Part shown: piece after piece, positions 10,537 to 31,257 of the stretch
How positions within the stretch are numbered: the stretch's first letter is position 1
How the letters are laid out: each line of letters begins with the position of its first letter
From: Bacteroidota bacterium
GTDB taxonomy: Bacteria; Bacteroidota; Bacteroidia; Bacteroidales; Lentimicrobiaceae
Assembly (NCBI GenBank): GCA_009773515.1
Contig: WSXX01000016.1
Location: 62,001 to 126,000, forward strand
Direction of reading: 5' to 3'
DNA: 64,000 nucleotides
Program-made: the position numbers and the translations under genes
Notes under the pieces: model-generated
Told to the model about the DNA's origin: nothing
What the model saw: the letters and a program-made list of their open reading frames with translations, nothing else
Database searches by the model: none

Positions 10537-11829
10537 ATGAAAGCTGGAATCAAATTAATAGACCTGATAAGGGGAACTGACATTCTGGGATGCTACGAAA
10601 AACTAAAACATCTGGCAAACCATCCTGAAGAATCCGTTTTAATTCAAAACAGCAATCTCATCAGTCTTTTAAAGTATCTCAAAACCAACAACAAATATTA
10701 CCAAAACCTGCTTGAACGGTTTACTGACGAAGAGATTAACAAATACCCGTTTGTTGTGCTGAACAACCTGCCGGTGATTGATAAACAAATCATCAATAAC
10801 AACTACAACAACTTTTACATTCCCGATAAAAAACGTCCTTCACAAAAGAAAAAAACCGGAGGAAGCACTGGTGCTCCTTTTTACTATTACGTTGACAAAG
10901 AGCATCTTTCGTGGATCTGGGCGCATATTTATTTCTTTTGGAATCTTTACGGTGGTTATCAACCAGGCGATCCTTTTGTTACCATAGCCGGCAATTCGCT
11001 CAGAACTGCCAACCGTCAGGCCAGTGAATCAGTTTATCACCTTTTGCAGAATAATTATTTTATTAAAGGCGATGTGATAAATCAGGACATGAAGATATCA
11101 ACATCAAGGATAAAAAAAGCCAGATTGTTGTATGGTTATCCGAGTTCGATACAGAATATTATCAAAGTCAGACCTGATCTTGTTAAAGCTTTCAAAAATC
11201 TGAATGCAATTTTTACAACTTCCGAGCAGCTTACTCCACAGGTTCGAAAAAGCATAGAAACTGCTTTCGGGAAACCGGTTTTTGACATGTATGGCGCCAA
11301 CGATGGCGGAATCCAGACCTGCGAATGTACCGAGCATGATGGCTATCATATCAACATGCTTAACTGCCATGCAGAGAACCACTGGAACGAACATGGTATG
11401 TGCGAAATACTTCTGACCAATCTGAGCAGTTACACATTTCCATTTATTAAGTACAAAGTCGGAGATCTGGGTGTAGTTAAAAAAGAAGCTTGCAAATGCG
11501 GCTTGTCATGGCCCAGGGTTACCGAGCTGAAAGGCAGAACACGTGATCTTATTAAACTACCATCGGGTAGTGTTATACATGGGGTCTATTTTAACAATAT
11601 CTTTTACCGTTATGAACAAATTGACGGTTACCGGATCATTCAGCATGAAGATTATTCCCTCGAAATTCTGATTCATCTTCAGGATGAGTCACAATTTGAG
11701 CGAGTTTCTTCCGAAATAGATTCTTTCATCAACAAAGAATGGCCTGAACTTAAATCGAAAACCGGCAAACTTCCCGAACTTAATCCGACCAATCTGAAAT
11801 TCAAACTCATCGAAAGCCATGTCGTTTAA
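10537..11829 (+). CDS. PaaK/CapK-like adenylate-forming enzyme
   Basis: A 430-residue member of the phenylacetate-CoA ligase-like branch of ANL enzymes. The phosphate-binding loop KKTGGSTGAPF is at residues 105-115. IFTTSEQL, FDMYGANDGGIQTCEC and KYKVGDLGVV follow in the normal order. CECTEHDGYH and CKCGLSWPR carry the four Cys of the PaaK/CapK zinc-like knot, and LKGRTRDLIKLPSG marks the hinge to the mobile C-domain. Such enzymes adenylate a carboxylic acid; CapK-type members occur in capsule loci with unknown acyl substrates. Its end overlaps the CapA-like gene by 11 bases, so translation is probably coupled. Confidence 0.85.
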   Translation: MKAGIKLIDLIRGTDILGCYEKLKHLANHPEESVLIQNSNLISLLKYLKTNNKYYQNLLERFTDEEINKYPFVVLNNLPVIDKQIINNNYNNFYIPDKKRPSQKKKTGGSTGAPFYYYVDKEHLSWIWAHIYFFWNLYGGYQPGDPFVTIAGNSLRTANRQASESVYHLLQNNYFIKGDVINQDMKISTSRIKKARLLYGYPSSIQNIIKVRPDLVKAFKNLNAIFTTSEQLTPQVRKSIETAFGKPVFDMYGANDGGIQTCECTEHDGYHINMLNCHAENHWNEHGMCEILLTNLSSYTFPFIKYKVGDLGVVKKEACKCGLSWPRVTELKGRTRDLIKLPSGSVIHGVYFNNIFYRYEQIDGYRIIQHEDYSLEILIHLQDESQFERVSSEIDSFINKEWPELKSKTGKLPELNPTNLKFKLIESHVV

Positions 11830-12817
11830 AATCATTTGCACGGGTGATGTGATGTTGGGTGAGAATGTTCACCATTTCAAACGTGGAATCGTTTCACGCT
11901 TCGATGGGAAATACCCTTCGCTGATTTCCGAAAATGTGCGGGAACAACTCTCAACAGCCGATATGCTGCTCATGAATTTCGAAGCAAGTCTGGCAAAGGA
12001 TAATCAGCTTAAGAAAATGACCATCGACAGGGCGGTTTATGTTGCTCCTGTTCAATCGCTTGAATTGCTGAAAAGCATCAAATCGCAGGTTGTTGTGAGT
12101 GTGGCCAACAATCACTTCGGACAACATGGCACTGCATCAGCAAAAGAGTCAATAAAAATTCTGGAATCCAACGGGATATTGGTAACCGGCAAAAATAATC
12201 TTCCTGTTGAAATAGAGAAGAATGGCTTTAGAGCCAGCATTTATGGCGTGAGCCTGGTAAAAGACAATCACTTTGAAGGCTCGTATTTTAAAAGCAGCTA
12301 CAGCGATTTGATTGCTGATCTTAAACTTAGTGAGAAAAGCGCGAATGAGGTCAGAATTATCAGCATTCACTGGGGTGAAGAGTACTTCACATCAGAAAAC
12401 GAAAAGCAGAGAAAACTTGCCGGGGAGTTATCGGCTGCAGGTTTTGATTACATTATCGGGCATCACCCGCACGTAATACAACCTTTCTCAAAAATCGGAG
12501 ATTCATCGGTTATTTACAGTCATGGGAATTTTATCTTTGATCAGAATTTCTCCGGCTTGACTCAGAAAGGACTGGTGAGCAGCATTTCAATTCCCGGAGG
12601 TAAAACTGAGTTGTTTATCAGTCAGCAGCGTAGGTTCAGGGTAACCGGACTTAAACAAGTTTCGCCGGAACAACTTGAAAAATTCTGTAAATCAGCATAT
12701 CACCCTAAAAAACCGGTTATGATGAGAATCAGGATGAAACTTGAACTTCTGCTGAAGTTTTACGAGTTAAACTGGCCCATCATACAGACTTTCACCTTAA
12801 GAATGTTTAAGAAATAG
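11819..12817 (+). CDS. CapA-like metallophosphatase-fold protein
   Basis: A 332-residue protein of the CapA/PgsA family, with IICTGDVMLGENV at the N-terminus, VVSVANNHFGQHG near residue 90, IISIHWGEEY near 180, IIGHHPHVIQP near 215 and VIYSHGNFIFDQ near 233. These are the conserved metal-site blocks. Family members act in poly-gamma-glutamate capsule synthesis or hydrolyse phosphoester or peptide-like bonds in surface polymers. No signal peptide is visible, which is unusual if it acts outside. It overlaps the PaaK-like gene, hinting at a shared step. Confidence 0.85.
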   Translation: MSFKIICTGDVMLGENVHHFKRGIVSRFDGKYPSLISENVREQLSTADMLLMNFEASLAKDNQLKKMTIDRAVYVAPVQSLELLKSIKSQVVVSVANNHFGQHGTASAKESIKILESNGILVTGKNNLPVEIEKNGFRASIYGVSLVKDNHFEGSYFKSSYSDLIADLKLSEKSANEVRIISIHWGEEYFTSENEKQRKLAGELSAAGFDYIIGHHPHVIQPFSKIGDSSVIYSHGNFIFDQNFSGLTQKGLVSSISIPGGKTELFISQQRRFRVTGLKQVSPEQLEKFCKSAYHPKKPVMMRIRMKLELLLKFYELNWPIIQTFTLRMFKK

Positions 12818-14270: not shown

Positions 14271-15677
14271 ATGATACGCGAACGCGAAGATCTTGGCAGC
14301 CAGATTTTTGGCATAATAATAACAGTGATTTCACTGTTGGCCTTTATTGGAGCATTCCAGTATGTACGCTGGTATTCAGGTGCAGAAATTGAATATGACA
14401 GCCAGTATATTACTGTGCTATTGTTGTTGATCCCAATCTGGTATTATGGCATCAGCAAAACCAACCTGACCAAATTTTACAGAGCCAAAGATGCAGTTAT
14501 AATTATGCTCGAAAGCGGGCTATTCGTAATTGCAGCAACCGGAATTCTGGCAGCTTTGATAATTATACTCAAGCTCGATAAAATTAACCTAACCATTTTA
14601 CTTTTCTACGCAATCATTGATTTTGTGCTTCTCAATCTGCTGATTACCCTTTCATATGGTTATCACAAAAACCTTATGAATAAAGGGATGAATACGCGGA
14701 ATGTAATAGTTATTGCAGATCAGAATTGTGTTGACTTTGTAGAAAGGTTATTCCTTCATAAAGAATGGGGTTACAGGATTATTGCAATCATTTCTGACTC
14801 AGAACTGATCAATGAAGTATTTGCAAGCAGAGTGAAGGTTATAGAACAAACCCACAGCCTTCCGAACCTGATAAAAACCCATGTGGTTGATGAAGTTTTA
14901 TATTGTAAAAATGACATCAACCAAAACGAAATAAGGTCAATGGTTTATACCTGTGAAGAAATCGGCGTAATTTTCAGATTACAGTCTCAGTTTTTTCAGA
15001 TGTCTTCAACAAAGACACACCTCAGTTATTATGATGATGTGCCGTTTCTGACTTTTGTGAATACCCCGGTTAATAAGATGGCGCATCAATGGAAATTTGT
15101 TGTTGATATTGTTGCCTCCTTTTTTATAATAGTAATCTGGTCGCCGGTACTTTTATTTATAGCACTTGCAATAAAACTAACCTCTAAAGGGCCTGTCGTT
15201 TTCAAACAGAAACGCGTTGGATTGCGCGGACGCGAATTCAGCATCTATAAATTCCGGACAATGGTACAGGATGCTGAAAAGCTAAAGGCACTGCTCGAAA
15301 GTCAGAATGAGATGGATGGCCCGGTATTTAAAATCAAAAATGATCCCCGGATCACACCTATCGGAAGGTTCCTGCGTAAATCAGGGCTCGATGAAATTCC
15401 ACAGTTCTTTAATGTGCTTAAAGGCGACATGTCGTTGGTAGGTCCTCGTCCTCCGCTTCCGCGAGAAGTAGAACAATATGAAAGATGGCAGCTCAGGCGA
15501 TTATCAATGAGACCCGGAATTACCTGCATCTGGCAGATTGCGCCCAACAGAAACAGCATTTCGTTTGAGGAATGGATGAAACTTGACCTGCAATATATCG
15601 ATAGCTGGTCTCTGAAAATCGATTTCATACTTCTCATCAGAACAATTCAAACTGTAGCGCGTGGTTCCGGACAGTAA
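14271..15677 (+). CDS. Undecaprenyl-phosphate glycosylphosphotransferase (initiating enzyme)
   Basis: A 468-residue inner-membrane protein of the WbaP/WcaJ type. Four N-terminal transmembrane helices lie at about residues 12-130. A degenerate CoA-binding-like Rossmann domain follows, then a re-entrant helix near 283-305. The catalytic C-domain has QKRVGLRGREFSIYKFRTM near 315-330 and SLVGPRPPLPREVEQY near 388-403. It transfers a hexose-1-phosphate onto undecaprenyl phosphate, the first committed step of repeat-unit assembly. It is followed by wza- and wzc-type genes, a standard arrangement. Confidence 0.93.
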   Translation: MIREREDLGSQIFGIIITVISLLAFIGAFQYVRWYSGAEIEYDSQYITVLLLLIPIWYYGISKTNLTKFYRAKDAVIIMLESGLFVIAATGILAALIIILKLDKINLTILLFYAIIDFVLLNLLITLSYGYHKNLMNKGMNTRNVIVIADQNCVDFVERLFLHKEWGYRIIAIISDSELINEVFASRVKVIEQTHSLPNLIKTHVVDEVLYCKNDINQNEIRSMVYTCEEIGVIFRLQSQFFQMSSTKTHLSYYDDVPFLTFVNTPVNKMAHQWKFVVDIVASFFIIVIWSPVLLFIALAIKLTSKGPVVFKQKRVGLRGREFSIYKFRTMVQDAEKLKALLESQNEMDGPVFKIKNDPRITPIGRFLRKSGLDEIPQFFNVLKGDMSLVGPRPPLPREVEQYERWQLRRLSMRPGITCIWQIAPNRNSISFEEWMKLDLQYIDSWSLKIDFILLIRTIQTVARGSGQ

Positions 15678-15812: not shown

Positions 15813-16577
15813 ATGAAAAGAACGCTTAAGCAAATCGGAATACTTATCTTTAGTTTGGGTTTATTATTTACGTCCTGCGTTCCACAGGAAAAACTCAAAT
15901 ATGTTCAGGATGAAACCTCATCTGTTGTAAAAGATATTTATAGCCACGACAGGCCTGAAAAAAGAATCAAACCTTTTGACAATCTGTACATTAATGTTTT
16001 GAGTCTTGATGAACAGACTGCGCGGATTTTCAGCAATCAGAATTCTTCCATTACTGGTGGCATGAGTATTGATTTGCTCAGTTATACGGTTAGTGAAACC
16101 GGCACCATCGACTTTCCATTTATTGGTCAGATAAACCTTAACAACCTCTCCTTGCTTGAAGCAAAAGCCAAAGTCGAAAAAGAGCTCAGCCAATATCTTA
16201 GTAACACTGCCATCACCATGAAATTTGTGAACAGCAATATTACCGTGTTGGGTGAAGTTAGAAATCAGGGTGAATTCCCATATTTTAAAGAGCAGCTCAA
16301 TATTTTTCAGGCATTGGGTCATGCCGGCGGGGTAACTGACTATGGCGACAAAAGCAAGGTAACTCTAATCAGAGAATACGACAACACAATTCAGTATCAC
16401 AACATCAACCTTACCGATAAAAGCATTGTAGAAAGTGGTTTTTATTATCTCCAACCCGGAGATGTGGTGATTGTAGAGCCAATAAAAACCAAATTCCGTA
16501 ACCTGAGAACTTTTACATATGCTACTGTACTTGCAACAACATCTACTTTAATCACTGTATTGTACTTTTTCAGATAA
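15813..16577 (+). CDS. Polysaccharide export lipoprotein, Wza/OPX family
   Basis: A 254-residue secreted lipoprotein. The signal peptide ends in the lipobox LFTSC (Cys22). The export domain begins near residue 55 (KPFDNLYINVLS), and an SLBB domain follows (NITVLGEVRNQGEFPYF, then ALGHAGGVTDYGDKSKV). A hydrophobic C-terminal segment lies at about 232-252, in line with Bacteroidetes OPX proteins, which are shorter than E. coli Wza. It forms the outer-membrane or periplasmic channel for polymer export. The Wzc-like gene starts 7 bases later. Confidence 0.92.
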   Translation: MKRTLKQIGILIFSLGLLFTSCVPQEKLKYVQDETSSVVKDIYSHDRPEKRIKPFDNLYINVLSLDEQTARIFSNQNSSITGGMSIDLLSYTVSETGTIDFPFIGQINLNNLSLLEAKAKVEKELSQYLSNTAITMKFVNSNITVLGEVRNQGEFPYFKEQLNIFQALGHAGGVTDYGDKSKVTLIREYDNTIQYHNINLTDKSIVESGFYYLQPGDVVIVEPIKTKFRNLRTFTYATVLATTSTLITVLYFFR

Positions 16578-16584
16578 TTGAACC

Positions 16585-19038
16585 GTGAAAAAAACCGAAG
16601 AAATATTTCAGCAAAAAACTGACTACAAAGATCTTGTATTCAAAATATGGCGATTCAAACATTGGTTTGTCATCTCTTTCTTTGTACTGATAACCGGCGC
16701 GTACATTTTTAACAAAATTACCCCGGCTATTTATAAAAACAAAACAACATTGCTGCTTAAGGACACTCAAAGCAGCTCATTTCTTTCGTCAGGTGACGTA
16801 ATGCAGGGATTTGGTTTATTCGGAGCCAACCAGAACATTGAAAATGAATTGGGAGTATTAACCTCCTATTCAATGATTTACGATGCTGTTAACATTTTGA
16901 ATCTTGAAACATCTATTTACAGTGAAAAATATTTGTTTGGTGGTATAATCAAACATAAAGCTTTGCGATCTGTAGATGAAATATATCTGGACAAGCCTAT
17001 TCAGATCAGCATTAACAAATCTGTGTATCAGCCTATTGATCTGCCGATTTATTTTACCATTCTCAACGATAAGGAATTCAGGATTGAAGCCAAAGGTGAA
17101 GATGTGCTCATTTATGACTACATTGAAGACAGGGTTGTAACCATTGCAAACAAAGTAAATATTGAAGGAACCTACAAGTTTGGCGAAGAAATCAAAGGTG
17201 CAAATTATGATTTCAGAGTACACCTTTCACCAGGCCAAACTGTTCTGCCTCCAAAAGATGCGCGCACATTCTTCTCATTTAACAGCATAAGTTATCTTAC
17301 CATGTATTATCAGGGATCAATCTCTGCGATTGTAACTTCACGTACTTCATCGCTGGTAGTGATCTCAATGAATGGAAACAATCTCTTTAAAATTACTGAC
17401 TTTCTGAATACACTTTCCAGTGCCTATCTTCAGCGAAATCTTGAGCGGAAAAACAGAATTGCTATAAATACTGTCAAGTTTATCGATAGCCAGATAAGCG
17501 AAGTTGCCGACTCATTAACTTATGCCGAAAGTAAACTTCAGAACTTCCGTACTTCAAACAGAGTAATGGATATCGGGTTTCAAGGACAACAGTCACTTGA
17601 AAGAATGAATCAGCTTGAAGGCGAAAGAGCTTTACTGATTATGCAAAAAAAATATTACGATTATATTCGTGGATATTTTGAGAAGAATACAGATATGGCA
17701 GACCTGATAGCACCTTCCTCAATGAATGTGCAGGATGCAATTCTCAATCAGTTAATCAGTCAGTTGATTACCTTGAATGCTGACAGAAATAACCTTTTGC
17801 AGCAAGGGAATATCAAAAACCTCCGATTAAATACCATAGAAGTACAGATAACCAATGTAAAAAACACTATAATTGAAAACATTAACAGTAATGCTGCGAC
17901 AACAGAAATAGCGCTTCAGGACATCAACAACAGGGTAGCGAGAATCTCATCTGAAATGTCGCGTATTCCTTCAACAGAACGCCAGTTGTTGGGAATGGAA
18001 AGATCATTCAAACTCAATGATGCCATTTATACCTTTTTACTTCAGAAACGTTCAGAAGCGCAGATAGCCAGAGCATCCAACGCTCCTGATTATGATGTAA
18101 TTGATCAGGCCAGGTATGTAACTTCCACCAAAATATTCCCTAAAAGCAACCTTTCGTTTATGATTGCAGGTTTAATGGGTTTGGTGCTGCCATTTATTAT
18201 AATCGTACTTCGCGACTTCCTGAATGTAAAAATTTCAGGCAAAAAAGAGATTGAGTCTATGACTGCATTTCCGATACTCGGTCATGTTTTCAACAATGAT
18301 ACAAAAGAAAACATCGTCATCAATGAAACAAGCAATTCTCCCATCTCTGAATCGTTTCGAAGCATAAGAACAAACCTTCAGTTTTATGCAAAAGGAAAGG
18401 ATAAACAGGTATTCCTGATCACTTCGTCATACACAGGTGAAGGTAAATCGTTTGTTGCCCAGAATCTGGCCGCTGTTTATGCACTTTTTGGTAAAAAAAC
18501 CTTAATCATCGGATTTGACCTAAGGAGACCTAAACTTTATCAGGACTTCAAACTTAATAATCAGAAAGGAATCAGCACTGCATTGATCAATCAAACTTCA
18601 CTGCCCGATATAATTCAGAGCACTAGCATCAAAAACCTCGATTTTATATCGGCCGGGCCGATTCCTCCCAATCCATTGGAGCTTATTTCATCAGAAAAAA
18701 CGGAAGAACTGATCAATGAATTGAAAAACCATTACGATTATATCATCATTGACTCTCCGCCAATAGGAGTTGTTTCGGATGCCTATCTTCTGATGAAGTT
18801 TTCTGATGTAAACCTGTTTGTCGTCAGACAGGGATTCTCCAACAAGGAAGCATTCAGCAACAGTGTTAATCTGCTAAAGCAAAAGAATGTACCACATGTT
18901 TCAATCGTTATAAATGATGTTAAAGCCAAAGGTTTGATGTATGACTATGGCTACGAATACACCTATTACAATGATGAAAGTAAAAAACCCTGGTACAGTT
19001 TTGCACTAGGCAAAAAGCCTGTAACCCGCAAAAAGTAA
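16585..19038 (+). CDS. Wzc-like polysaccharide co-polymerase / BY-family tyrosine kinase
   Basis: An 817-residue inner-membrane protein starting with GTG. A Wzz domain lies between TM1 (about 28-48) and TM2 (about 523-543), with long periplasmic coiled-coil segments in between. The cytoplasmic kinase has Walker A SSYTGEGKSFVAQN near 617, Walker A' LIIGFDLRRPKLY near 643 and Walker B YIIIDSPPIG near 722. The C-terminus has a tyrosine cluster (YDYGYEYTYYND, near 787) of the kind autophosphorylated in Wzc. It controls chain length and couples polymerisation to the Wza channel. A strong terminator follows. Confidence 0.94.
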   Translation: MKKTEEIFQQKTDYKDLVFKIWRFKHWFVISFFVLITGAYIFNKITPAIYKNKTTLLLKDTQSSSFLSSGDVMQGFGLFGANQNIENELGVLTSYSMIYDAVNILNLETSIYSEKYLFGGIIKHKALRSVDEIYLDKPIQISINKSVYQPIDLPIYFTILNDKEFRIEAKGEDVLIYDYIEDRVVTIANKVNIEGTYKFGEEIKGANYDFRVHLSPGQTVLPPKDARTFFSFNSISYLTMYYQGSISAIVTSRTSSLVVISMNGNNLFKITDFLNTLSSAYLQRNLERKNRIAINTVKFIDSQISEVADSLTYAESKLQNFRTSNRVMDIGFQGQQSLERMNQLEGERALLIMQKKYYDYIRGYFEKNTDMADLIAPSSMNVQDAILNQLISQLITLNADRNNLLQQGNIKNLRLNTIEVQITNVKNTIIENINSNAATTEIALQDINNRVARISSEMSRIPSTERQLLGMERSFKLNDAIYTFLLQKRSEAQIARASNAPDYDVIDQARYVTSTKIFPKSNLSFMIAGLMGLVLPFIIIVLRDFLNVKISGKKEIESMTAFPILGHVFNNDTKENIVINETSNSPISESFRSIRTNLQFYAKGKDKQVFLITSSYTGEGKSFVAQNLAAVYALFGKKTLIIGFDLRRPKLYQDFKLNNQKGISTALINQTSLPDIIQSTSIKNLDFISAGPIPPNPLELISSEKTEELINELKNHYDYIIIDSPPIGVVSDAYLLMKFSDVNLFVVRQGFSNKEAFSNSVNLLKQKNVPHVSIVINDVKAKGLMYDYGYEYTYYNDESKKPWYSFALGKKPVTRKK

Positions 19039-19047
19039 CTAAAAAAT

Positions 19048-19074
19048 AATCCGGCTCGCTGCCGGATTTTTTTT
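19048..19074 (+). terminator. Rho-independent terminator of the polysaccharide operon
   Basis: An 8-bp perfect stem AATCCGGC/GCCGGATT with loop TCGCT, followed by a run of T, starting 10 bases after the Wzc-like stop. A second weaker hairpin GCCTTAT/ATAAGGC lies at 19082-19105. Confidence 0.92.
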
Positions 19075-19643: not shown

Positions 19644-22600
19644 ATGAAAATTAAAACAGGGAGAATTTCCAATCAAACACATCAATCGAGATTTATTTTC
19701 TTGATATTAACAGTTTTTCTTACTCTATTTTACACAACATTGATATTCGGAGCTACTTTTCACGTAGATCCTACATTTACGGGTTCAGTACAAAATGGTT
19801 CGATCACCAATCCGTATAATTCATGGAGTAAGGTAACCTTTAACAGCAACAACTCTTATCTTCAGAAAAGAGGGACAACTGCCAGCATTACAGGCAGCAT
19901 AACGATCACCGGCCGTAGCAATATTATAATCGGAGCATATGGTACAGGTAACAGGCCACGCATTAATAAGACATCTGGCAGCGGGCATGTTCTTGATCTG
20001 ACTACAATTTCCAATTGCACCATACAGGAATTGGAAATCAGCTCAACATCAAATGCTACCTCAGGCATTTTGATTGATGGCTATGGAACTGCCATATCGT
20101 CAAACAACCTGATAGACAACTGCGTAATTCACGGCTGTGAATGGGGTGTCAGAATAATTACCCGTGCAGCAGGCAACAGAATTCTGAATACTACCATTCA
20201 TAACATTGGAGATGATGGAATTTACATCGGAGAAGTGCTTAACATTGAAATAGGATATTGCAATATCTACAATGTAAACACCAAATTCTTCATTAATCCT
20301 GATGAGAGTTACTCTGCCGGCGACAACATTCAGCTTGTTTCGCTGAACAATATGTATTTCAATATTCATCATAATACACTTGATCACAGCTCAACAGGGA
20401 ATAAATTCTGTTTTATCTCTGCCGGCGAAACCTATTCCGGTGTTATTGAATACAATACCATGATTGGTAATTCCAGTCAGACGACAAGTTGTATCTATCT
20501 GGGAAACACAAACAATACAGTTACGGTAAGATACAACACCCTGAAAGATGCGAATTATGCTGTATACTCCTATGCCAGTAATCTGCAGTTCCATTACAAC
20601 CAGATAATAAGAAACAATCAGGGATTGAGCATAATGAGCAACAGAAGCTTAACGGCACTCAATAATGTTTTCTACAACAACAATGGCATCAGTATAGGAG
20701 CAGGCAGCGGGACCAGTGTTACATCCAGAAACAATATATTCCACATAGCAGGTAGTAATTCAAGGGTTTATAATACCTCAGGTTCAGTTACCTCCAATAA
20801 TAACAACTTCAATACACAACAGAATGGATTTCTGAGTGGCCATAGTACACTGGCATCATGGAGATCAGCAACAGGAAACGACATGAATTCATTTGTTGCC
20901 AACCCATTGTTTGTAAATCCTTCAAATGATGATTTTTGTGTTCAACCAACATCTCCATGTATCAATACAGGAATTAATGTTAACCAGCCGATTGACTTTT
21001 TCGGCACACAAGTTCCACAGTCCAATCTTCCTGATATTGGATTTTATGAATTAGCAAATAATCAGGGGGGAAATCAAGCTCCGGTTATTAATAATCAATC
21101 TTTTAATGTTGCTTCAAATGCAACAAATGGAACCATTATTGGGACTGTTGTTGCTACTGACCCGAATCAGGGACAGACACTGACTTTTTCAATTACTTCG
21201 GGCAATACCAATGGGGCTTTTGCACTAAACGCAGGTAGTGGAGTTATAACCGTTGCAAATGCTGCAGCTCTTACAGGAAATGCCATTAGTCTCGTTGTAA
21301 GAGCTACGGATAACGGCAGCCCTGTAATGTGGTCACAGGCTACTGTTACGATTAATATTTCTGCAAACTCCAATCAGGCACCGGTTATAAACAACCAATC
21401 ATTCAGTGCCATACAGGGTTCCTCAAACGGAACTGTGGTTGGAACTGTTGTTGCAACCGACCCAAATGCAGGTCAGACTTTAACCTTCAGCATTACAGGC
21501 GGCAATACAAATAATGTGTTTGCAATAGCTGCTTCAACAGGTATTATTACTGTTGCAAACACTTCAGCTATGACTACCGGCGTAAGGAATCTTACGGTAA
21601 GGGCAACCGACAACGGCAGCCCTGTAATGTGGTCGCAGGCAACAGTAGCAATAACTGTAACTGCTGCTGCTAACCAGGCACCGGTAATAAACAATCAATC
21701 GTTCAGTACTATTCAGGGTTCTTCCAACGGAACTGTGGTTGGAACTGTTGTAGCAACCGACCCAAATGCAGGTCAGACTTTAACCTTCAGCATTACAGGT
21801 GGCAATACAAATAATGTGTTTGCAATAGCTGCTTCAACAGGTATTATTACTGTTGCAAACACTTCAGCGATGACTACCGGTGTAAGCAATCTAACGGTAA
21901 GGGCAACCGACAACGGCAGCCCTGTAATGTGGTCGCAGGCAACAGTATCGATCACCGTAAATGCAGCAGCAAGCAATTTACCTCCTGTGGTGGTAAATCA
22001 ATCTTTCTCAAGTGCTCCAAACCCTTCCAATGGAACCAATATTGGTGTTATGATTGCAACAGATCCAAATCCCGGGCAGACACTGAGATATAATATTACC
22101 GGCGGAAACACCAACAATGCATTCTACATTCTTTCAGCTACAGGCATGATAAGGGTAGGCAATTCAAGTGCAGTAAATCCAGGCGTTTTTAACCTGACGG
22201 TGAGGGTTACCGACAATGGAAGCCCGATAATGTGGACAGAAGCTACGGCAACAATAACCGTTGGCGGGGGCAGTAATCAGCCGCCTGTCATCACAAATCA
22301 GTCATTTTCAGTTGCGGCCAATCCTCCTGGCGGAACTCAGGTTGGGACAGTTGTGGCAACAGATCCTAATGCCGGTCAAACCTTATCGTTTTCAATCACA
22401 TCCGGAAACACCAACAATGCATTCAATATAACATCTTCATCAGGACTAATCACAGTTGGAAATTCAGCTGCTGTTAATCCCGGTGTATTTAATCTGACCG
22501 TAAGAGCCACTGATAACGGAAGCCCTGTTATGTGGTCGGAAGCTACTGTCAGCATCAATGTCAGTGGCACAAGTAATCAGCCTCCTGTAATTGCAAACCA

Positions 22601-23474
22601 ATCTTTCAGCATAAATGAAAACTCGCCCAACGGCACGCTGGCAGGTACAGTAATTGCAAGCGATCCAAACTCAGGACAGACTCTTACTTATAGCATTATT
22701 GGCGGAAATACCGGGGGAGCTTTTAATATTAACGCTTCTAATGGAAATCTCACAGTTGGCAACACCACTTTGCTTAACTTTGAAGTTAACCCTGTTTTTA
22801 ACCTTACTGTTAGAGTTACAGATAATGGTTCAGGCAATTTATGGTCACAAGCAACTGTTACTGTAAACCTTATTGACGTTAATGAACCTCCGGTTTTAAA
22901 CCCAGGCACATTTTCAGTTACACAATTTGCTCCTAATGGTACTTTTGTCGGTGCTGTGTCAGGATATGACCCTGATTTGGGGCAATCGGTTACTTATCAG
23001 ATTATTTCGGGAAATACCTCCGGTGCTTTCCATGTTAATTACAACAATGGTTCAATCAATGTGGTAAATGGTTCGGCACTTAATCCTAATGTCAACCCTG
23101 TATTCTTTCTGAATATCAGAATCCGGGACAACGGATCGCCATCGCTGTCATCTACAGGAATTATAAGGATTGATGTATTGAGCAATAAAACCGAACTTGT
23201 TGAAGAAACCCTTACACCGGAAAGTAAAGTTGACCCGGTATTTAATCTTTATCCAAACCCTTCACCGGACGGAATATATACATTGACATCCGAAAATTTT
23301 GATGAAGAAGCAGTTATCATGGTTTTTGACCTTGCTGGCAAGATGGTTTCAGAAGTCAATAATTTTTCAGGCGACAGGGTCAGTATAAATCTTGAAGCTA
23401 TGCCAAAAGGCATCTATATGATACGAATAAACTCGGAGTCCTGCACAAAAACAATTAAAGCCATTAAGCAATAA
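19644..23474 (+). CDS. Secreted parallel beta-helix / cadherin-repeat protein with T9SS C-terminal domain
   Basis: A 1276-residue protein. The signal peptide ends near residue 36. Residues 40-470 form a right-handed parallel beta-helix typical of polysaccharide lyases and carbohydrate-binding proteins (repeated N-N and G-I-x-I patterns, e.g. NLIDNCVIHGCEWGVRI). From 21072, seven cadherin-like repeats of about 100 residues follow (PVINNQSF ... ATDPNxGQTL ... VRATDNGSPVMWSQATV). The last 80 residues (LYPNPSPDGIY ... MPKGIYMIRI) are a type A T9SS sorting domain. It should be exported by the type IX system and anchored or released at the surface. It is tandem with a longer paralogue and directly follows the export genes, so binding or cleavage of the locus polymer is plausible but unproven. 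Confidence 0.88.
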   Translation: MKIKTGRISNQTHQSRFIFLILTVFLTLFYTTLIFGATFHVDPTFTGSVQNGSITNPYNSWSKVTFNSNNSYLQKRGTTASITGSITITGRSNIIIGAYGTGNRPRINKTSGSGHVLDLTTISNCTIQELEISSTSNATSGILIDGYGTAISSNNLIDNCVIHGCEWGVRIITRAAGNRILNTTIHNIGDDGIYIGEVLNIEIGYCNIYNVNTKFFINPDESYSAGDNIQLVSLNNMYFNIHHNTLDHSSTGNKFCFISAGETYSGVIEYNTMIGNSSQTTSCIYLGNTNNTVTVRYNTLKDANYAVYSYASNLQFHYNQIIRNNQGLSIMSNRSLTALNNVFYNNNGISIGAGSGTSVTSRNNIFHIAGSNSRVYNTSGSVTSNNNNFNTQQNGFLSGHSTLASWRSATGNDMNSFVANPLFVNPSNDDFCVQPTSPCINTGINVNQPIDFFGTQVPQSNLPDIGFYELANNQGGNQAPVINNQSFNVASNATNGTIIGTVVATDPNQGQTLTFSITSGNTNGAFALNAGSGVITVANAAALTGNAISLVVRATDNGSPVMWSQATVTINISANSNQAPVINNQSFSAIQGSSNGTVVGTVVATDPNAGQTLTFSITGGNTNNVFAIAASTGIITVANTSAMTTGVRNLTVRATDNGSPVMWSQATVAITVTAAANQAPVINNQSFSTIQGSSNGTVVGTVVATDPNAGQTLTFSITGGNTNNVFAIAASTGIITVANTSAMTTGVSNLTVRATDNGSPVMWSQATVSITVNAAASNLPPVVVNQSFSSAPNPSNGTNIGVMIATDPNPGQTLRYNITGGNTNNAFYILSATGMIRVGNSSAVNPGVFNLTVRVTDNGSPIMWTEATATITVGGGSNQPPVITNQSFSVAANPPGGTQVGTVVATDPNAGQTLSFSITSGNTNNAFNITSSSGLITVGNSAAVNPGVFNLTVRATDNGSPVMWSEATVSINVSGTSNQPPVIANQSFSINENSPNGTLAGTVIASDPNSGQTLTYSIIGGNTGGAFNINASNGNLTVGNTTLLNFEVNPVFNLTVRVTDNGSGNLWSQATVTVNLIDVNEPPVLNPGTFSVTQFAPNGTFVGAVSGYDPDLGQSVTYQIISGNTSGAFHVNYNNGSINVVNGSALNPNVNPVFFLNIRIRDNGSPSLSSTGIIRIDVLSNKTELVEETLTPESKVDPVFNLYPNPSPDGIYTLTSENFDEEAVIMVFDLAGKMVSEVNNFSGDRVSINLEAMPKGIYMIRINSESCTKTIKAIKQ
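21072..23183 (+). repeat. Seven tandem cadherin-like repeats (coding)
   Basis: Units begin at 21072, 21372, 21672, 21975, 22275, 22575 and 22881, with periods of 300, 300, 303, 300, 300 and 306 bases. Units 2 and 3 (21372-21671 and 21672-21974) are nearly identical in DNA, including long unbroken matches, which implies a recent duplication or gene conversion. Confidence 0.9.
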
Positions 23475-23497
23475 TTGCTGATTTCCTTTACAGACAC

Positions 23498-23528
23498 GGC
23501 GGCTATTTAAAATAGCCGCCTTTTTTTT
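23498..23528 (+). terminator. Rho-independent terminator after the first beta-helix gene
   Basis: A 10-bp perfect stem GGCGGCTATT/AATAGCCGCC with loop TAA, followed by eight T, 24 bases after the stop codon. Confidence 0.93.
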
Positions 23529-23810
23529 GCATATATAGACAGGCAATATGCATAAATGATTGTAAATTTTTTATACTTCAGCGCAATAATTTTTGTAATA
23601 TTTTTTACCATTCTCATTTCAACAACATAGATGCTTGATTTTCAGCATCATTACCAACGCCAGACATTTACTTATTTTACCATTATTTTATTAATAATGA
23701 TTAAAAATAACAAAAAAAATTACTTTCAGGGGATTACTTTTTGAAAAACAGGTAATAAAATACTGATTACTGCACGGGACAACTTTAAACAAGAAAGCAG
23801 TATATCAGAC
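23529..23810. other. AT-rich spacer between the two paralogues
   Basis: Between the terminator and the next start lie about 280 AT-rich bases with no gene and no exact TAnnTTTG element. The second paralogue presumably has its own promoter here, but I cannot place it. Confidence 0.4.
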
Positions 23811-26800
23811 ATGATTTTATTACTCAAACCGTCTAATCAAACTCATCACACAATGAAAAGACAATTTTTACTCCCCCTGACAAATAGAATTTCCTCAAGG
23901 ATACTTAATTCCGGTATCCTCGCTCTGATTCTTCTCACCTTCACTCTGGCCACAACAGCGCAAACCACTGTACATATTGACCCAACCTATACCGGATCAG
24001 GTCAGAATGGCTCTCTGCAAACTCCTTACAGCTCATGGAGCCAGGTAAGCTTTGCCAATGGCAACAGTTATCTTCAAAAAAGAGGAACTACTGCTTACAC
24101 CACAAGTAATATTACCATAACGGGCAGAAATAATATCACAGTTGGTGCATATGGAAGCGGCGACAGGCCAAGAATCATCAAAACCACAAACGGAGGACAT
24201 GTTCTCGATTTTACAACCGTTTCAAACTGTATTATCCGCGACCTTGAAATCAGCTCAACTGCAGCCGTAACCTCCGCCATTATTATTGATGGATACGGTA
24301 CAGCCATTTCGCCAAACAACCTTATTGACAACTGTGTGCTTCATGGTACCGAATGGGGTGTCAGACTTATAACTCAGGCACCCGGAAACCGCATTTTGAA
24401 CACTACTATTCATAATATCGGTGATGATGGAATTTATGCAAAAGACATTTCAACCATTGAAATTGGTTTCTGTAATATTTACCACATCAACACCAAATTC
24501 TTTATAAATCCTGATCAAAGTTACTCTGCAGGTGACAATATTCAGCTGGTTTCATTGTACAACCTCGACTTTTACATTCACAACAATATTCTTGACCACA
24601 GTTCAACCGGTAATAAATTCTGCTTTATTGCAGCCGGTGAAACTTACACAGGAGTTATTGAAAATAATGTTATGATAGGAAATTCAAGCCAGACAACCAG
24701 TTGCATCTACCTTGGAAACACCAATAATATGGTGACCATAAAAAATAATATTCTAAAAGATGGTAATTATGCTGTTTATTCCTATGCCAGCAATCTTCAG
24801 TTCCATTACAATAAAGTATTAAGGAACAATCAGGGAATCAGCGTTATGAGCAACAGAAGTCTGACTGCACTTAACAACGTGTTTTACAACAACAATGGTA
24901 TCAGCATAGGCGCAGGAAGCGGCACCAGCATTACCTCGAAAAACAATGTATTTCACATCTCCGGAAGCAGTTCGAGAGTTTACAATTGCAACAGTTCGGT
25001 TGTATCAAACTTTAATAACTTTACAAGTCAACAAAGCAATTTCCTGAACGGGCACAGCACACTTTCTTCCTGGCAATCAGCTACAGGCAATGATGCCAAC
25101 TCCTATGTTGCCAATCCTCAATTTGTTAATCCCGCTGCTGATGATTATTGCTTACAGCCCGTATCGCCCAATATCAATGTTGGTGCTGCGGTCGGACTTT
25201 CAAATGACTTCTTCGGCACCGCTGTTCCTCAGGCCAGTTCTCCTGATATCGGAATTCATGAAGTAATTTCAGGAGGTTCATCAAATTTACCTCCAACCAT
25301 CAGCAACCAATCGTTTAGCATTGCTGAGAACAGTGCAAACGGAAGTGTGGTTGGACAGGTAATTGCCTCTGATCCGGATGCAGGACAAACTATAACCTAT
25401 TCAATTACTTCCGGAAATACCGGCAATGCATTTGCTATTAATGCTGCTACGGGCGAGCTTTCAGTTTCAAATCAGCAGGCTCTCGATTTTGAAACAAATC
25501 CTTTGTTTCAGTTAACAATTCAGGTTCAGGACAATGGCTCAGGAAACCTAACCGCAAGTGCTACCATAACAATCAATCTGGTTGATGTAAATGAATCTCC
25601 GGTAATGAGTAACAAAAGTTTCCAGCTTAATGAAAACTCACCTGCCGGTGCAATTGTCGGAACAATGACTGCCACTGATCCTGACCAGGGCCAAACCATC
25701 AGTTTTTCAATTACTTCAGGAAACCAATCAGGGGCATTCAGTATAAATCCAACCTCTGGGCTTATACAGGTAAGCAATAGTTCTGTAATTGACTTTGAGC
25801 TATACCAGAGCTTCACCCTTACAATTGTTGCGACTGATAACGGAACACCTTCATTATCTGCAACTGCATCTGTAATTATCAGCATAATTGACCTCAACGA
25901 AAGCCCGATAATCAATGATCAGGACTTCGAGGTTGAGAGTGGTTCACCAACAGGGTATATCATTGGCGAAGTTGAAGCATCAGATCCTGATGCCGGTCAG
26001 TCATTGACCTATTCAATAATATCAGGAAATACTTCCTCTGCATTTCAGATCAATCCTTCTTCAGGAGTATTGAGTGTTGCGAACAGTTCAGCGGTTAACT
26101 ATCTGATTAACCCTCAGTTTAATCTAGTGGTCAGGGTTGCCGACAATGGCAGTCCATCACTTAACAGCAGTGCAAATGTTCAGGTATCTGTATCAGCTCA
26201 AATTAACAATCCACCTGTAATTTCTGCTCAAACATTTCAAATTCCCGAAAACAGCGCAAACGGAACTCAGGTAGGACAAGTTACAGCCTCTGATCCAAAT
26301 CCGGATCAAACACTAACTTATTCGATTACCGGTGGAAATACCAATGGAGCATTTTCATTAAACGCTGCAACAGGAATTATTTCGGTTGCCAATCAAAGTG
26401 CTCTAAATTTTGAAACCAATCCTCAATTTCTGCTTACCGTTCAGGTACAGGATAACGGGGAAGGAAGCCTCACTGCAAGTGCAACAATGACTATTAATCT
26501 GACTGATGTAAACGAAAGTCCGGTAATCACCGATCAGAACTTCCAGGTTGAAAACTATGCTACTAACGGAACAATCGCCGGAGTTGTGGTTGCATCAGAC
26601 CCCGATCAGGGACAAAGCCTCGCTTTTGCAATTGTTTCAGGAAATACCTCCGGTGCATTCGCAGTGAATTCAGCAACAGGCGTTTTGAGCGTTGCCAACA
26701 GTGCTGCCATCAATTATCTGATAAACCCTGAGTTTGATCTTGTAGTGAGCGCAACTGACAACGGAATACCTTCGCTCAGCAGCAGCACAAACGTTTATGT

Positions 26801-28922
26801 GTTTATTGTGCCTTCAAACAATGACCCTCTGATCAACCCTCAATCATTTCAGGTTGCAGAAAACAGCGCCAACGGAACATTGGTTGGGCAGGTCGTAGCT
26901 TCAGACCCCGATCCGGGACAGGCAATAACCTACTCCATTATATCAGGAAACTCAGAATCTGCGTTTATGATCAATGAAAGTGGCCAGCTTCTTGTAAATA
27001 ACGGATTGGCTATCAACTACGAAGTGCAATCAACTTATCAGTTAACTGTTATGGTTACTGACAACGGAGAGCCTTCATTATCAGCTTCAGCAAGAGTTAC
27101 CGTTTCTATAACTGACATCAATGAAGTACCGGCTATTGCTCCAGATCAGGCTCTCACTATTTCTGAACATGTACAATCCGGAACTCAGATTGGCATAGTA
27201 ATGGCTTCAGATCCCGACTTTAATCAAACCTTAACATACTCCATTACCGGCGGCAATAACCTGAATGCGTTCTCAATTCATCCTGCTACAGGAATGATAA
27301 GCATTGCAGGGTTTGTTTGCTTTGAATACTGCAGTTCCTACGAATTATCAATCAGGGTAACTGACAACGGAAGCCCTGCTTTGAGTGATGAAAAAACGCT
27401 TAGTATTGTTATTACTGACATCAATGAGACTCCTGCAATTGCTGATCAATCCTTCGACATTGATGCTTACTCACCTGTAGGCACAACAGTAGGTACAGTT
27501 GTGGCAACAGATCCTGATTTTAATCAAACACTTACTATCTCAATTGAAGGAGGTAATACTCAGGGTGCTTTTGTTATAAGCAATAGCGGAGAAATCACAG
27601 TTGCCAACCCGGAAGCATTGAACAACCTGACAAACCCATCTTTCAGCCTAACTGTAAGGGCTCAGGATAATGGCTCACCATCACTGAGCGCATATGCAAC
27701 CATCACAATATCGGTAAATTCAGTTAACAGCTCTCCTGTTATTGAAGCACAAAGTTTTCAGGTTGCTGAAGGAAGTGCTGTTGGGTTTGTTATCGGACAG
27801 ATCGAAGCATCCGATCCCGATCAGGGGCAACAGCTTACTTATACAATTCTTACCGGAAATACATCAGGTGCATTTGCACTTTCTCAAAGCGGACTTTTAA
27901 CGGTAAGCAATCCTCAGGCACTTGTTTACAATCAGAACCCATCATTTACCCTGACTGTATCAGTTAGCGACAATGGATTACCGGTATTGTCAGCCGAAGC
28001 ACAAATCACCATTGATGTTGTTACATCAAACAATCCTCCGGTTATGCTTCCACAAACTTACAGTTATAACGAAAATGCACCCAATGGAAGATATATCTGC
28101 ACTGTAGTGGCAACTGATGAACCGGGTGACACATTCCAGTTCTACCTTTTAGGCGGAAATACAAATGATGCATTCAAACTTCAGGCTTACACCGGCAGAA
28201 TTTTTGTAAACAATACACTTGCACTGGATTTCGAAACCACTCCGGTATTCCATCTGAATGTCAGAGCAATTGACAACCACGGTGCCTTTTCCGATGAGAT
28301 CATCACCATTCAGTTGAATGATGTAAACGAGGCTCCGGTTGTTATGAATCAGACTTTCTCAGTCATCAGACCAGCCAACTCCAATACTCCTGTTGGCACT
28401 GTTATAGCAACTGACCCGGATTTTGGACAGGTCCTCAGGTACTTCATTCAACAGGGAAATACAAACAACATCTTTAAGATTGATATGATGACTGGCTTGA
28501 TCAGAATAAATAACGCTTCTGCATTTAACAAGTCAACAGCAACTTCGTACAACCTTCTTATCAGGGTGCGCGATGATGGCTCTCCTGCTCTGTCTTCTTA
28601 TGCTATGATAACCATCAATGTGGTTAAAAGCAAAGATTCTGATGAAATTACTATAGAACAGATTGAAGCAAAGGTACAGACCGAAGTGGCTGCGTATCCG
28701 AATCCTTCATCAAACGGAATATTTACAATTAAATGTGGTGAATTCAACAGTTCAGATGTAGTCATGACCGCTTCTTCTCTAACTGGAAAAACTATTGTGC
28801 AGCAGCAGGTATTCAGCAGCAGCCAAACCATTCTTGACCTGAGTGCTATGCCAAATGGCATATACATCATAAGGATTCTTGACGGAGAAAATTCCTACAT
28901 GAAAAAACTGATAAAACAGTAA
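23811..28922 (+). CDS. Giant secreted beta-helix / cadherin-repeat protein with T9SS C-terminal domain
   Basis: A 1703-residue paralogue of the preceding gene. After the signal peptide, the beta-helix at about 55-490 matches the first protein nearly block for block (GTAISPNNLIDNCVLHG, INPDQSYSAGDNIQLVS, SSTGNKFCF). Eleven cadherin-like repeats follow, mostly in the SPSLSASATV style rather than the PVMWSQATV style. A type A T9SS sorting domain closes the protein (AYPNPSSNGIF ... MPNGIYIIRIL). The start at 23811 is supported by SNQTH at residues 9-13, shared with SNQTH near the start of the first paralogue; an ATG at 23853 (MKRQFLLP) would still give a good signal peptide. It is surface-exposed and probably carbohydrate-interacting. 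Enzymatic activity cannot be judged. Confidence 0.87.
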   Translation: MILLLKPSNQTHHTMKRQFLLPLTNRISSRILNSGILALILLTFTLATTAQTTVHIDPTYTGSGQNGSLQTPYSSWSQVSFANGNSYLQKRGTTAYTTSNITITGRNNITVGAYGSGDRPRIIKTTNGGHVLDFTTVSNCIIRDLEISSTAAVTSAIIIDGYGTAISPNNLIDNCVLHGTEWGVRLITQAPGNRILNTTIHNIGDDGIYAKDISTIEIGFCNIYHINTKFFINPDQSYSAGDNIQLVSLYNLDFYIHNNILDHSSTGNKFCFIAAGETYTGVIENNVMIGNSSQTTSCIYLGNTNNMVTIKNNILKDGNYAVYSYASNLQFHYNKVLRNNQGISVMSNRSLTALNNVFYNNNGISIGAGSGTSITSKNNVFHISGSSSRVYNCNSSVVSNFNNFTSQQSNFLNGHSTLSSWQSATGNDANSYVANPQFVNPAADDYCLQPVSPNINVGAAVGLSNDFFGTAVPQASSPDIGIHEVISGGSSNLPPTISNQSFSIAENSANGSVVGQVIASDPDAGQTITYSITSGNTGNAFAINAATGELSVSNQQALDFETNPLFQLTIQVQDNGSGNLTASATITINLVDVNESPVMSNKSFQLNENSPAGAIVGTMTATDPDQGQTISFSITSGNQSGAFSINPTSGLIQVSNSSVIDFELYQSFTLTIVATDNGTPSLSATASVIISIIDLNESPIINDQDFEVESGSPTGYIIGEVEASDPDAGQSLTYSIISGNTSSAFQINPSSGVLSVANSSAVNYLINPQFNLVVRVADNGSPSLNSSANVQVSVSAQINNPPVISAQTFQIPENSANGTQVGQVTASDPNPDQTLTYSITGGNTNGAFSLNAATGIISVANQSALNFETNPQFLLTVQVQDNGEGSLTASATMTINLTDVNESPVITDQNFQVENYATNGTIAGVVVASDPDQGQSLAFAIVSGNTSGAFAVNSATGVLSVANSAAINYLINPEFDLVVSATDNGIPSLSSSTNVYVFIVPSNNDPLINPQSFQVAENSANGTLVGQVVASDPDPGQAITYSIISGNSESAFMINESGQLLVNNGLAINYEVQSTYQLTVMVTDNGEPSLSASARVTVSITDINEVPAIAPDQALTISEHVQSGTQIGIVMASDPDFNQTLTYSITGGNNLNAFSIHPATGMISIAGFVCFEYCSSYELSIRVTDNGSPALSDEKTLSIVITDINETPAIADQSFDIDAYSPVGTTVGTVVATDPDFNQTLTISIEGGNTQGAFVISNSGEITVANPEALNNLTNPSFSLTVRAQDNGSPSLSAYATITISVNSVNSSPVIEAQSFQVAEGSAVGFVIGQIEASDPDQGQQLTYTILTGNTSGAFALSQSGLLTVSNPQALVYNQNPSFTLTVSVSDNGLPVLSAEAQITIDVVTSNNPPVMLPQTYSYNENAPNGRYICTVVATDEPGDTFQFYLLGGNTNDAFKLQAYTGRIFVNNTLALDFETTPVFHLNVRAIDNHGAFSDEIITIQLNDVNEAPVVMNQTFSVIRPANSNTPVGTVIATDPDFGQVLRYFIQQGNTNNIFKIDMMTGLIRINNASAFNKSTATSYNLLIRVRDDGSPALSSYAMITINVVKSKDSDEITIEQIEAKVQTEVAAYPNPSSNGIFTIKCGEFNSSDVVMTASSLTGKTIVQQQVFSSSQTILDLSAMPNGIYIIRILDGENSYMKKLIKQ

Positions 28923-28972: not shown

Positions 28973-30079
28973 TTATTTCGAATAATTCTGATAAACCATC
29001 TCAATTCCTTGTTTAAGACTTATTTTGCTTGTCCATCCCAGCGACGCCAATCTTGAACTGTCAAGTAACTTTCGCGGAGTTCCATCGGGTTTGGTGAGGT
29101 CAAAATCAATCTTACCTTTAAATCCAACCACTTCCTGAATTGTCATTGCAAGATCTTTGATTGAAACTTCATTTCCAGAGCCTATATTTATGTGAGTATT
29201 TCTTACCTGCCCGGCATTTTCACTTCTCAGTGTTTTCAGCAAATCTTTGAACCCATAATTCTGCATCAGAAAAACGCAGGCATCAGCCATATCATCACTC
29301 CACAAAAACTCCCTTAAAGGGCTTCCTGAACCCCAAAGCGAAAGAGTAACCTGAGAAACATCGCCATCAGTAGATTGGGAAATACCATACCTTTTAAGGT
29401 ATTCAAGTATTTCACTTTCTGACGTATCCTGACCTATCCCTGCAGAGTTATGTGTAAGAAGGTCCTGATGAATTGCTTTCAAATCTCCATTGCTGAGGCA
29501 TTTACTCAGGTGAATCTTGCGGATAAGGGCCGGAAGCACATGCGAGTTTTCAAGGCTGTAATTGTCATTCAATCCATAAAGATTGGTAGGCATCACCGAA
29601 ATAAAGTCAGTACCATACTGATTGTTGTATGCCTCGCACATTTTCAGTCCTGCTATCTTTGCAATGGCATAAGGCTCATTGGTAAATTCCAGTTCGCTTG
29701 TGAGCAACTGCTCCTCATTCATTGGCTGAGGTGCATTTTTAGGATACACGCAACTACTCCCCAGAAACAACAATTTGGTAACGCCACACAGATAAGCACT
29801 GTGAATCACATTATTTTGAATCTGCAGATTTTCGAATATAAACTGAGCCCTGAAGGTATTGTTGGCCATTATCCCTCCTACCTTGGCTGCAGCCAGAAAC
29901 ACATATTCAGGCTTTTCGTCCTGAAAAAACTGTAGAACCGAAACTTGTGATGTCAGATCAAGCGCTGCATGTGTGCGGGTTATAATATTAGAATATCCTT
30001 TGGAGATCAAATTGCGAACAATTGCACTTCCTACAAGTCCCTTGTGCCCGGCAACGAAAATTTTGCTGTTTGGATTCAT
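28973..30079 (-). CDS. fcl: GDP-L-fucose synthase
   Basis: A 368-residue short-chain dehydrogenase that converts GDP-4-keto-6-deoxymannose to GDP-L-fucose with NADPH. The nucleotide-binding motif [15 protein letters not shown] is at the N-terminus. [11 protein letters not shown] carries the catalytic Ser, and YAIAKIAGL the catalytic Tyr-x3-Lys. An extra stretch of about 45 residues near 207-250 precedes [13 protein letters not shown]; similar long forms are usual in Bacteroidetes. It lies 25 bases after gmd in one operon, completing GDP-fucose synthesis from GDP-mannose. Confidence 0.95.
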
Positions 30080-30104: not shown

Positions 30105-31223
30105 TTATTCGAAGTAACTCAGCACATCATAACCGCCATCTTTCAGGTATTTGTCTTTTTTCGTAAGCTTGACATCGCCTTCCATCATATCTTTAACCAG
30201 TCCCTGCAGATCGTATTCGGGTTCCCAACCGAGTACAGATTTAGATTTGGCAGGATTACCGATCAGCAGCTCAACCTCTGTTGGCCTGAAATACATAGGA
30301 TCAACGGCAAGTACTTCTTTGCCAATCGGCAATTGAAACTCAGGATTATCACATTTGTCAACAAATGCTTTTTCATCAACACTGCTTCCGCTGAATCGCA
30401 AGGATATCCCAACTTCGGCAAAAGCCATTCTGACGAATTCACGCACTTCTGTAGTAACTCCGGTTGCAATTACGAAATCATCAGGTTTGTCCTGCTGAAG
30501 TATCAAATACATTGCTTTGATATAATCTTTGGCATGACCCCAGTCGCGCTGTGCCGATAAATTTCCCAGATACAGCTTATCCTGCATTCCCAATGCAATA
30601 CGCGAAACCGCCATGGTAATTTTACGGGTAACAAAAGTTTCACCTCGAATCGGAGACTCATGATTGAATAATATACCGTTTGATGCAAATATACCGTATG
30701 CTTCGCGATAATTAACTGTAATCCAGTAGGCATATAATTTGGCAACAGCATATGGACTACGCGGATAGAAAGGTGTTTTCTCACTCTGCGGAACTTCCTG
30801 AACCAGACCATATAATTCGCTGGTGGAAGCCTGATAAATGCGTGTTTTTTTACTCAGGCCCAGCAATCTCACTGCTTCAAGCAGACGCAGTGTTCCAATT
30901 CCGTCAGCATCAGCTACATATTCAGGCGAATCAAAACTAACCTTAACGTGCGACATAGCAGCAAGATTATAAATTTCGTCGGGCTGAACTTCCTGCACAA
31001 TTCTGATAATATTGGAAGAATCAGTCATATCGCCATAGTGAAGTACAAAATTGCGGTTTTCAATATGCGGATCCTGATAAAGGTGATCTATCCGGTTGGT
31101 ATTGAACATTGAACTACGGCGTTTTATGCCATGAACAATGTAATTTTTTCTTAGCAGGAATTCAGCAAGATAGGCACCATCTTGTCCTGTTACTCCTGTA
31201 ATCAGAGCTACTTTTTGCGACAT
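30105..31223 (-). CDS. gmd: GDP-mannose 4,6-dehydratase
   Basis: A 372-residue NADP-dependent dehydratase of the extended SDR class, making GDP-4-keto-6-deoxymannose. [20 protein letters not shown] starts near residue 5, [14 protein letters not shown] follows, [10 protein letters not shown] holds the catalytic Thr/Ser-Glu, and [12 protein letters not shown] the Tyr-x3-Lys. I chose the ATG at 31223 ([10 protein letters not shown]), which matches the family start; the frame stays open to an ATG at 31250, but those nine residues (MQIRKKQES) are not typical. It is first in the gmd-fcl operon. Confidence 0.95.
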
Positions 31224-31249
31224 ACTTTCTTGTTTTTTTCGAATTTGCA

Positions 31250-31257
31250 CAAATCTA
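31250..31257 (-). promoter_or_regulatory. Candidate -7 element for gmd-fcl
   Basis: The minus strand reads TAGATTTG, fitting TAnnTTTG, 27 bases before the chosen gmd ATG at 31223. This position supports the shorter start, since the -7 box reaches the upstream ATG at 31250. Confidence 0.45.

Follow-up and report, generated by a model that had tools for sequence, protein, structure and literature searches.

Tandem β-helix/cadherin proteins, candidate type IX cargo, encoded beside an exopolysaccharide export locus in Lentimicrobiaceae

Introduction

RbmB of Vibrio cholerae is an α-1,4 lyase that acts on the matrix polysaccharide VPS (PMC11637428). Like the two proteins described here (A and B), it is a β-helix protein encoded beside polysaccharide genes, in its case those of its own polymer, and its fold is matched by the N-terminal β-helix heads of A and B (Z 31, rmsd 2.5–2.6 Å, 293 residues); sequence identity to the heads is 12–13 %, and no shared catalytic residues were identified. 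RbmB is not known to have a cadherin stalk or a tail for the type IX secretion system (T9SS). The AlgE mannuronan C5-epimerases are secreted modular enzymes that modify exopolysaccharide (EPS), and the AlgE A-module was the top fold match of both head models (AlgE6: Z 34.2–34.6, rmsd 2.4–2.6 Å, 318 residues). Identity is ∼13 %, the conserved region of the aligned heads lacks DPHE (the catalytic motif of the mannuronan C5-epimerases AlgE/AlgG), cadherins are found here in contrast to the RTX modules of AlgE, and alginate is not indicated.

A second kind of likeness is offered by the rhizobial Rap proteins (RapA2, RapD), described as secreted cadherin-like calcium proteins that bind their own EPS and alter the matrix and the length of the polymer (PMC5061743, PMC9298526). 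Rap proteins differ in using type I secretion and in having one or two CHDL domains, the cadherin-like domain itself being the lectin, and a β-helix head is not described for them in the abstracts of these reports. Cadherin-repeat T9SS cargo of type A shares with A and B the signal peptide, the long repeats and the TIGR04183 tail; what A and B add is a conserved β-helix head, together with a tandem pairing and an EPS locus that are both fixed. In the literature searched on type IX secretion, combined with cadherin and exopolysaccharide or with β-helix and covering few subscription papers, no such proteins were described, and a search for RemA with wza/wzc yielded nothing relevant.

To our knowledge, the shaping and retention of EPS after its passage through Wza are poorly known in Bacteroidota. 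A pair of surface proteins conserved at a single EPS locus, with heads that seem to track the chemistry of the polymer and stalks of two set lengths, would give a testable handle on both, with head swaps acting on polymer specificity and cadherin trimming on reach. A and B are proposed here to work like RbmB (PMC11637428) and the calcium cadherin matrix proteins of the Rap type, although by sequence they belong to neither family.

Locus and domain organisation

The window analysed is a stretch of 64 000 nucleotides (contig WSXX01000016.1, assembly GCA_009773515.1; genome G000). The two giant genes with closely similar heads and sorting tails that an initial annotation had noted in it were recovered as open reading frames, and their domains were identified with Pfam and NCBIfam (Table 1). 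Both proteins consist of a signal peptide, a β-helix head of ∼440 residues, a chain of tandem cadherin domains and a T9SS type A sorting domain. Pfam counts of cadherin stretches (PF00028) agree with those of the initial annotation, namely 7 in A (E 1.6e-87) and 11 in B (E 1.6e-172), and the first repeat resembles the EC domains of protocadherin-15. Beta_helix (PF13229) was matched above the cut-off in A (29.1 bits) and below it in B (19.4 bits; cut-off 25.9); Por_Secre_tail (PF18962) exceeded its cut-off in both, and the type A sorting domain TIGR04183 scored 45.2 and 41.3 bits in the two proteins (cut-off 23). The heads of A and B in the window are 73 % identical as protein and only 70 % identical as DNA.

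Table 1. Coordinates of features in the window.
Feature	Coordinates	Strand	Evidence or remark
W10537, CoA-ligase-like EPS-locus gene (locus marker)	10537..11829	+	co-occurs with the A/B pair
PGA_cap-type gene	11819..12817	+	main tree split shared with the heads
WbaP-type initiating sugar transferase	14271..15677	+	PF02397, E 4.5e-68
wza-type EPS export protein	15813..16577	+	PF02563 and SLBB
wzc-type chain-length protein/tyrosine autokinase	16585..19038	+	
Terminator-like hairpin between wzc and A	19048..19068	+	
Gene A: β-helix head, 7 cadherin repeats, T9SS tail	19644..23474	+	1276 aa; ORF, Pfam/NCBIfam
A head, residues 37–477	19752..21074	+	HMM boundaries, AF2 model
Conserved patch of A head, D191–K254	20214..20405	+	alignment of 28 heads
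A cadherin stalk, 7 repeats	21072..23177	+	1 repeat with the full calcium motif set
A T9SS type A sorting domain	23238..23471	+	Pfam, NCBIfam, HMM
Terminator-like hairpin 3′ of A	23498..23520	+	∼46–50 nt past the A stop in 6/9 genomes
Gene B: β-helix head, 11 cadherin repeats, T9SS tail	23811..28922	+	1703 aa; ORF, Pfam/NCBIfam
B head, residues 51–492	23961..25286	+	HMM boundaries, AF2 model
B cadherin stalk, 11 repeats	25284..28622	+	5 repeats with the full calcium motif set
B T9SS type A sorting domain	28686..28919	+	Pfam, NCBIfam, HMM
fcl-type GDP-fucose synthase, conserved 3′ neighbour	28973..30079	-	sequence, synteny
gmd, GDP-mannose 4,6-dehydratase	30105..31250	-	PF16363, E 2.5e-146

GldM, the sole secretion component searched for, is present in the same genome (TIGR03517, 389.8 bits), together with at least 150 T9SS tails. 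From the C-terminal type A sorting domains and the presence of GldM we infer that A and B are type IX cargo exported to the cell surface.

The pair is bordered on its upstream side by WbaP, wza and wzc and on its downstream side by fcl and gmd, which are oriented towards B. The upstream EPS genes comprise glycosyltransferases and polysaccharide deacetylase-like, CoA-ligase-like and PGA_cap genes; two flippase-type genes, an aminotransferase and acyltransferases lie farther upstream. Among the annotated genes of the EPS locus there is no uronic-acid dehydrogenase, such genes being present elsewhere in the genome. Strong terminator-like hairpins follow both wzc and A, in many relatives as well as in the window, and for this reason a single operon of wzc, A and B is unsupported and A and B are likely to be separate transcription units. 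A scan for the Bacteroidota promoter elements TTTG/TAnnTTTG gave no excess over shuffled sequences and no match 5′ of A or B.

Conservation of the locus

The genus set comprised G000 and 18 relatives (19 genomes); a contig search for close relatives yielded two (L062, from the Bacteroidales MAG UBA5537, and L063) and one distant relative. The head is present in 13 of the 18 other genomes of the genus and, wherever the contig is long enough, its gene lies immediately 3′ of wzc with a gap of 312–1002 nt; the contig of G017 begins with the final wzc codons, ahead of the pair. The order wzc, A, B, followed by divergent fcl and gmd, is kept across the genus. The EPS marker W10537 occurs in 13/18 relatives and is accompanied by the head in all except G015, the contig of which ends ∼290 nt past wzc. 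Neither marker nor head was found in G002, G014, G016 and G018, and heads occur with no marker in G011 (680 contigs). Co-occurrence of head and marker was significant across the 19 genomes (Fisher p=0.006) and when the fragmented G011 and G015 were omitted (p=0.0004).

In other families of the order, the head lies within 7 kb of wza in 4 of 13 genomes (G135, G136, G233, G262), against a chance expectation of 0.2 of 13 (simulated p 2.5e-5, a value that ignores the kinship of G136 and G233), and in G188 and G346 it adjoins fcl/gmd. Heads away from EPS loci were found in G161, G280, G054, on a second contig of the window's own genome (G000:C44) and as three dispersed short copies in G008. The link of A and B to the EPS export locus is therefore strong, not universal, and its stability is that expected of an EPS-locus matrix protein. 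Random placement of homologues, which had been named at the outset as the outcome that would speak against such a link, is at odds with the position 3′ of wzc in all checkable genomes of the genus, the co-occurrence and the proximity to wza.

The three short head genes of G008 (L039, L040, L041) encode 0–1 cadherin repeats and a T9SS tail and are distant from EPS genes, and a locus copy is also present in that genome. In G262 (L103, 6482–13047), which belongs to a different family, two head genes that differ in architecture lie in tandem a few kb 5′ of WbaP and wza.

Similarity of the heads between genomes correlates with that of W10537 (rho 0.71) and PGA_cap (rho 0.73) and only weakly with that of wza (0.33) and WbaP (0.34), though both of these are nearer on the DNA; the correlation with W10537 persists when wza is controlled for (partial Mantel, rho 0.67, p 0.0004). 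Topology tests rejected the wza clade for the heads (p 1e-4) and the W10537 clade for wza (p 0.0016). PGA_cap shows the main split of the heads as well (96/94), and rpoB rejects it (p 0.017). In these comparisons, which used small sets and groups picked after the trees had been seen, head history thus follows that of the genes for polymer synthesis more closely than that of rpoB or of the neighbouring exporter, a pattern that fits heads matched to polymer structure.

Origin of the pair

When the last cadherin repeat and the tail of five A and five B proteins were placed in one tree, the A proteins fell on one side of a clean split and the B proteins on the other (96/94), and AU tests on the tails rejected grouping of A with B of the same genome (p 4e-4, 1e-4, 7e-68). 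The heads gave a conflicting picture: in G000, G010 and G017 the A and B heads of the same genome are sisters, and a position-based grouping of these heads was rejected by AU tests (p 2e-6 to 1e-59), whereas in G003 and G009 the heads sort by position. Tracts of raised DNA identity were found in differing parts of the head in G001, G005 and G013 and fall off at the cadherin boundary; those of G001 are sharp, with 90–95 % identity against 55–70 % in the flanks.

With tails that split into A and B and heads that in several lineages group within a genome, these data show that A and B are ancient paralogues, duplicated before the genus diversified, and that their heads have repeatedly been copied between A and B by gene conversion, the stalks and tails keeping A and B identity. 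Recent local duplication was ruled out by the tail split across species and by the 70 % DNA identity of the window heads, which is too low for a recent event. Independent duplication in each lineage was likewise ruled out by the tail split and by the sharp tracts of G001. Conversion of the heads may be neutral, conversion requiring similarity. The conflict between head and tail trees makes this a clear natural case of conversion limited to one domain. Duplication followed by independent repeat expansion, as initially suggested, is too simple an account: the paralogues are ancient, the likeness of their heads stems from conversion, and the excess of repeats in B is conserved and not a product of drift.

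Cadherin stalks

Repeat numbers (A/B) in the seven complete pairs were 7/11, 6/39, 4/8, 3/5, 9/12, 9/12 and 12/30, B (5–39) exceeding A (3–12) in every pair. Repeats were scored for the calcium-linker motifs xEx, DxE and DxNE and for all three together. The full set was found in 10/50 A repeats and 60/117 B repeats (p 1.6e-4), and the difference in repeat style between the window stalks pointed out in the initial annotation is seen in these motifs (one of 7 repeats against five of 11). B also surpasses A in calcium-type repeats in 7/7 pairs (sign test p 0.016, in which independence is overstated by shared ancestry). Only part of the repeats carry the set, and the three motifs come and go together, which supports their reading as calcium sites.

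The longer and calcium-richer stalk of B is thus an asymmetry that has been conserved, not a product of drift. In animal cadherins, linkers without calcium sites are flexible. By analogy, A, which is short and has few calcium sites, is probably flexible, and B, which is long and has many, is probably stiffened by calcium. Repeats 2 and 3 of A in the window share 91 % DNA identity and mark the only recent repeat duplication.

Several unusual stalks were noted. Gene B of G001 (G001:C2; L043/L044), a genome assembled into only two contigs, encodes 4613 aa and 39 cadherin repeats, and that of G012 has 30 repeats. Gene B of G013 (L045/L067) is split into two frames with 5 and 9 repeats, probably by a frameshift or an assembly error in the repeats. 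In G084 (L053, 8521–13788) and G280 (L097, 1–3444), two tandem heads precede the cadherins in one ORF, as if the heads of A and B were fused on one stalk.

Head fold and conserved patch

AlphaFold models were obtained for the A head with one cadherin (mean pLDDT 74) and for the B head alone (77, pTM 0.81); the coils are mostly at pLDDT 84–95 and the C-terminal cap is poor. Both models gave the same fold neighbours: the AlgE6/AlgE4 epimerases (Z 34–35), the Sf6 tailspike (32), PL6 (Z 30.8) and RbmB (Z 30.6–31.0), consistent with a right-handed β-helix. Comparison with polysaccharide lyase families, the check proposed along with the initial annotation, thus placed PL6 and RbmB among the best matches, below the AlgE epimerases. 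Lacto-N-biosidase and pectate lyases, enzymes of host and plant glycans, are further related folds. The neighbours are mostly glycan-active or glycan-binding, and the predicted fold is of a glycan-active type.

No polysaccharide lyase family was among the Pfam or NCBIfam matches of A and B, and a PDB sequence search with one head gave nothing convincing; a head profile matched 9rx2 in part (2e-8) and GH136 and pectate lyases more weakly. In the alignment of 28 heads, D191, N212, D227, Q230, N253 and K254 are invariant and D247 is kept in all but one (96 %). By predicted strand order, the invariant residues lie at the turns of three successive coils, distinct from a structural Asn ladder at 298, 319, 340, 363 and 387. 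This Asp/Asn/Lys patch resembles an active site or a binding site. A β-helix fold by itself does not separate an enzyme from a lectin. A C-terminal head-like match was also seen within an open frame of 11871 codons (G102:C35:30415-31071).

Proposed function

On balance we consider it somewhat probable that A and B are paralogous surface or matrix proteins, exported by the type IX system, that act on the EPS of the adjoining WbaP–Wza–Wzc locus. After export to the surface or matrix, the β-helix head would engage the locus's own EPS and most likely modify it in a lyase- or epimerase-like manner; an enzyme is favoured over a pure lectin by a narrow margin only. The cadherin chain would serve as a stalk, short and flexible in A and long and calcium-stiffened in B, so that one head type would be displayed at two reaches, and gene conversion would preserve the likeness of the two heads and their fit to the polymer, the stalks and tails retaining their A and B identities. 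The arrangement suggests a short and a long partner, matched to each other, that would act on the slime of their own cell. A more specific version is rather doubtful: a polymer-handling device of two reaches, with an EPS-specific head made uniform by conversion and co-evolving with the synthesis genes, in which the level of the slime layer at which the polymer is retained or processed would depend on calcium and repeat number.

The most serious competitor, distinctly less probable than modification of the polymer by A and B, is that both are pure adhesins, their lectin heads anchoring EPS to the cell or cell to cell with no chemistry and their calcium-binding cadherins providing stiffness or homophilic contacts, as in the rhizobial Rap lectins and the cadherins of Saccharophagus. 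EPS binding by RapA2 and RapD, with its effects on matrix and polymer size, lends weight to this, as do bacterial cadherins reported, in work cited in PMC12153261, to be carbohydrate-binding and homophilic; no catalytic motif was recognised in the heads. Against it stand the invariant patch across three coils and the fact that the top fold matches are enzymes. Action on foreign glycans such as food polysaccharide or host mucin, the EPS neighbourhood being only a shared island of surface genes, is unlikely: lacto-N-biosidase and pectate lyases are among the related folds and several copies of the head are distant from EPS genes, but strict synteny, co-occurrence with the EPS locus, proximity to wza in other families and a head history that tracks the polymer genes all argue otherwise, and no SusC/SusD pair was found among the annotated genes of the window (annotation covered part of them).

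Very improbable, finally, is the view that A and B are ordinary giant adhesins with no specific link to a polymer, co-inherited by plain linkage and with head conversion arising neutrally from the tandem arrangement. The genome is rich in T9SS cargo and conversion ends where similarity drops, at the boundary of head and cadherins, as this view would have it. Linkage alone, however, predicts wza as the best match to the head, and the wza and head trees conflict; the stalk asymmetry in all seven pairs also speaks against it.

Other features of the window

A large leucine-rich repeat protein is encoded at 33250–35895, and its place near gmd and ABC transporter genes is kept across the genus. A 27-bp tandem repeat (2.1 copies) lies at the end of an ORF (62158–62213).
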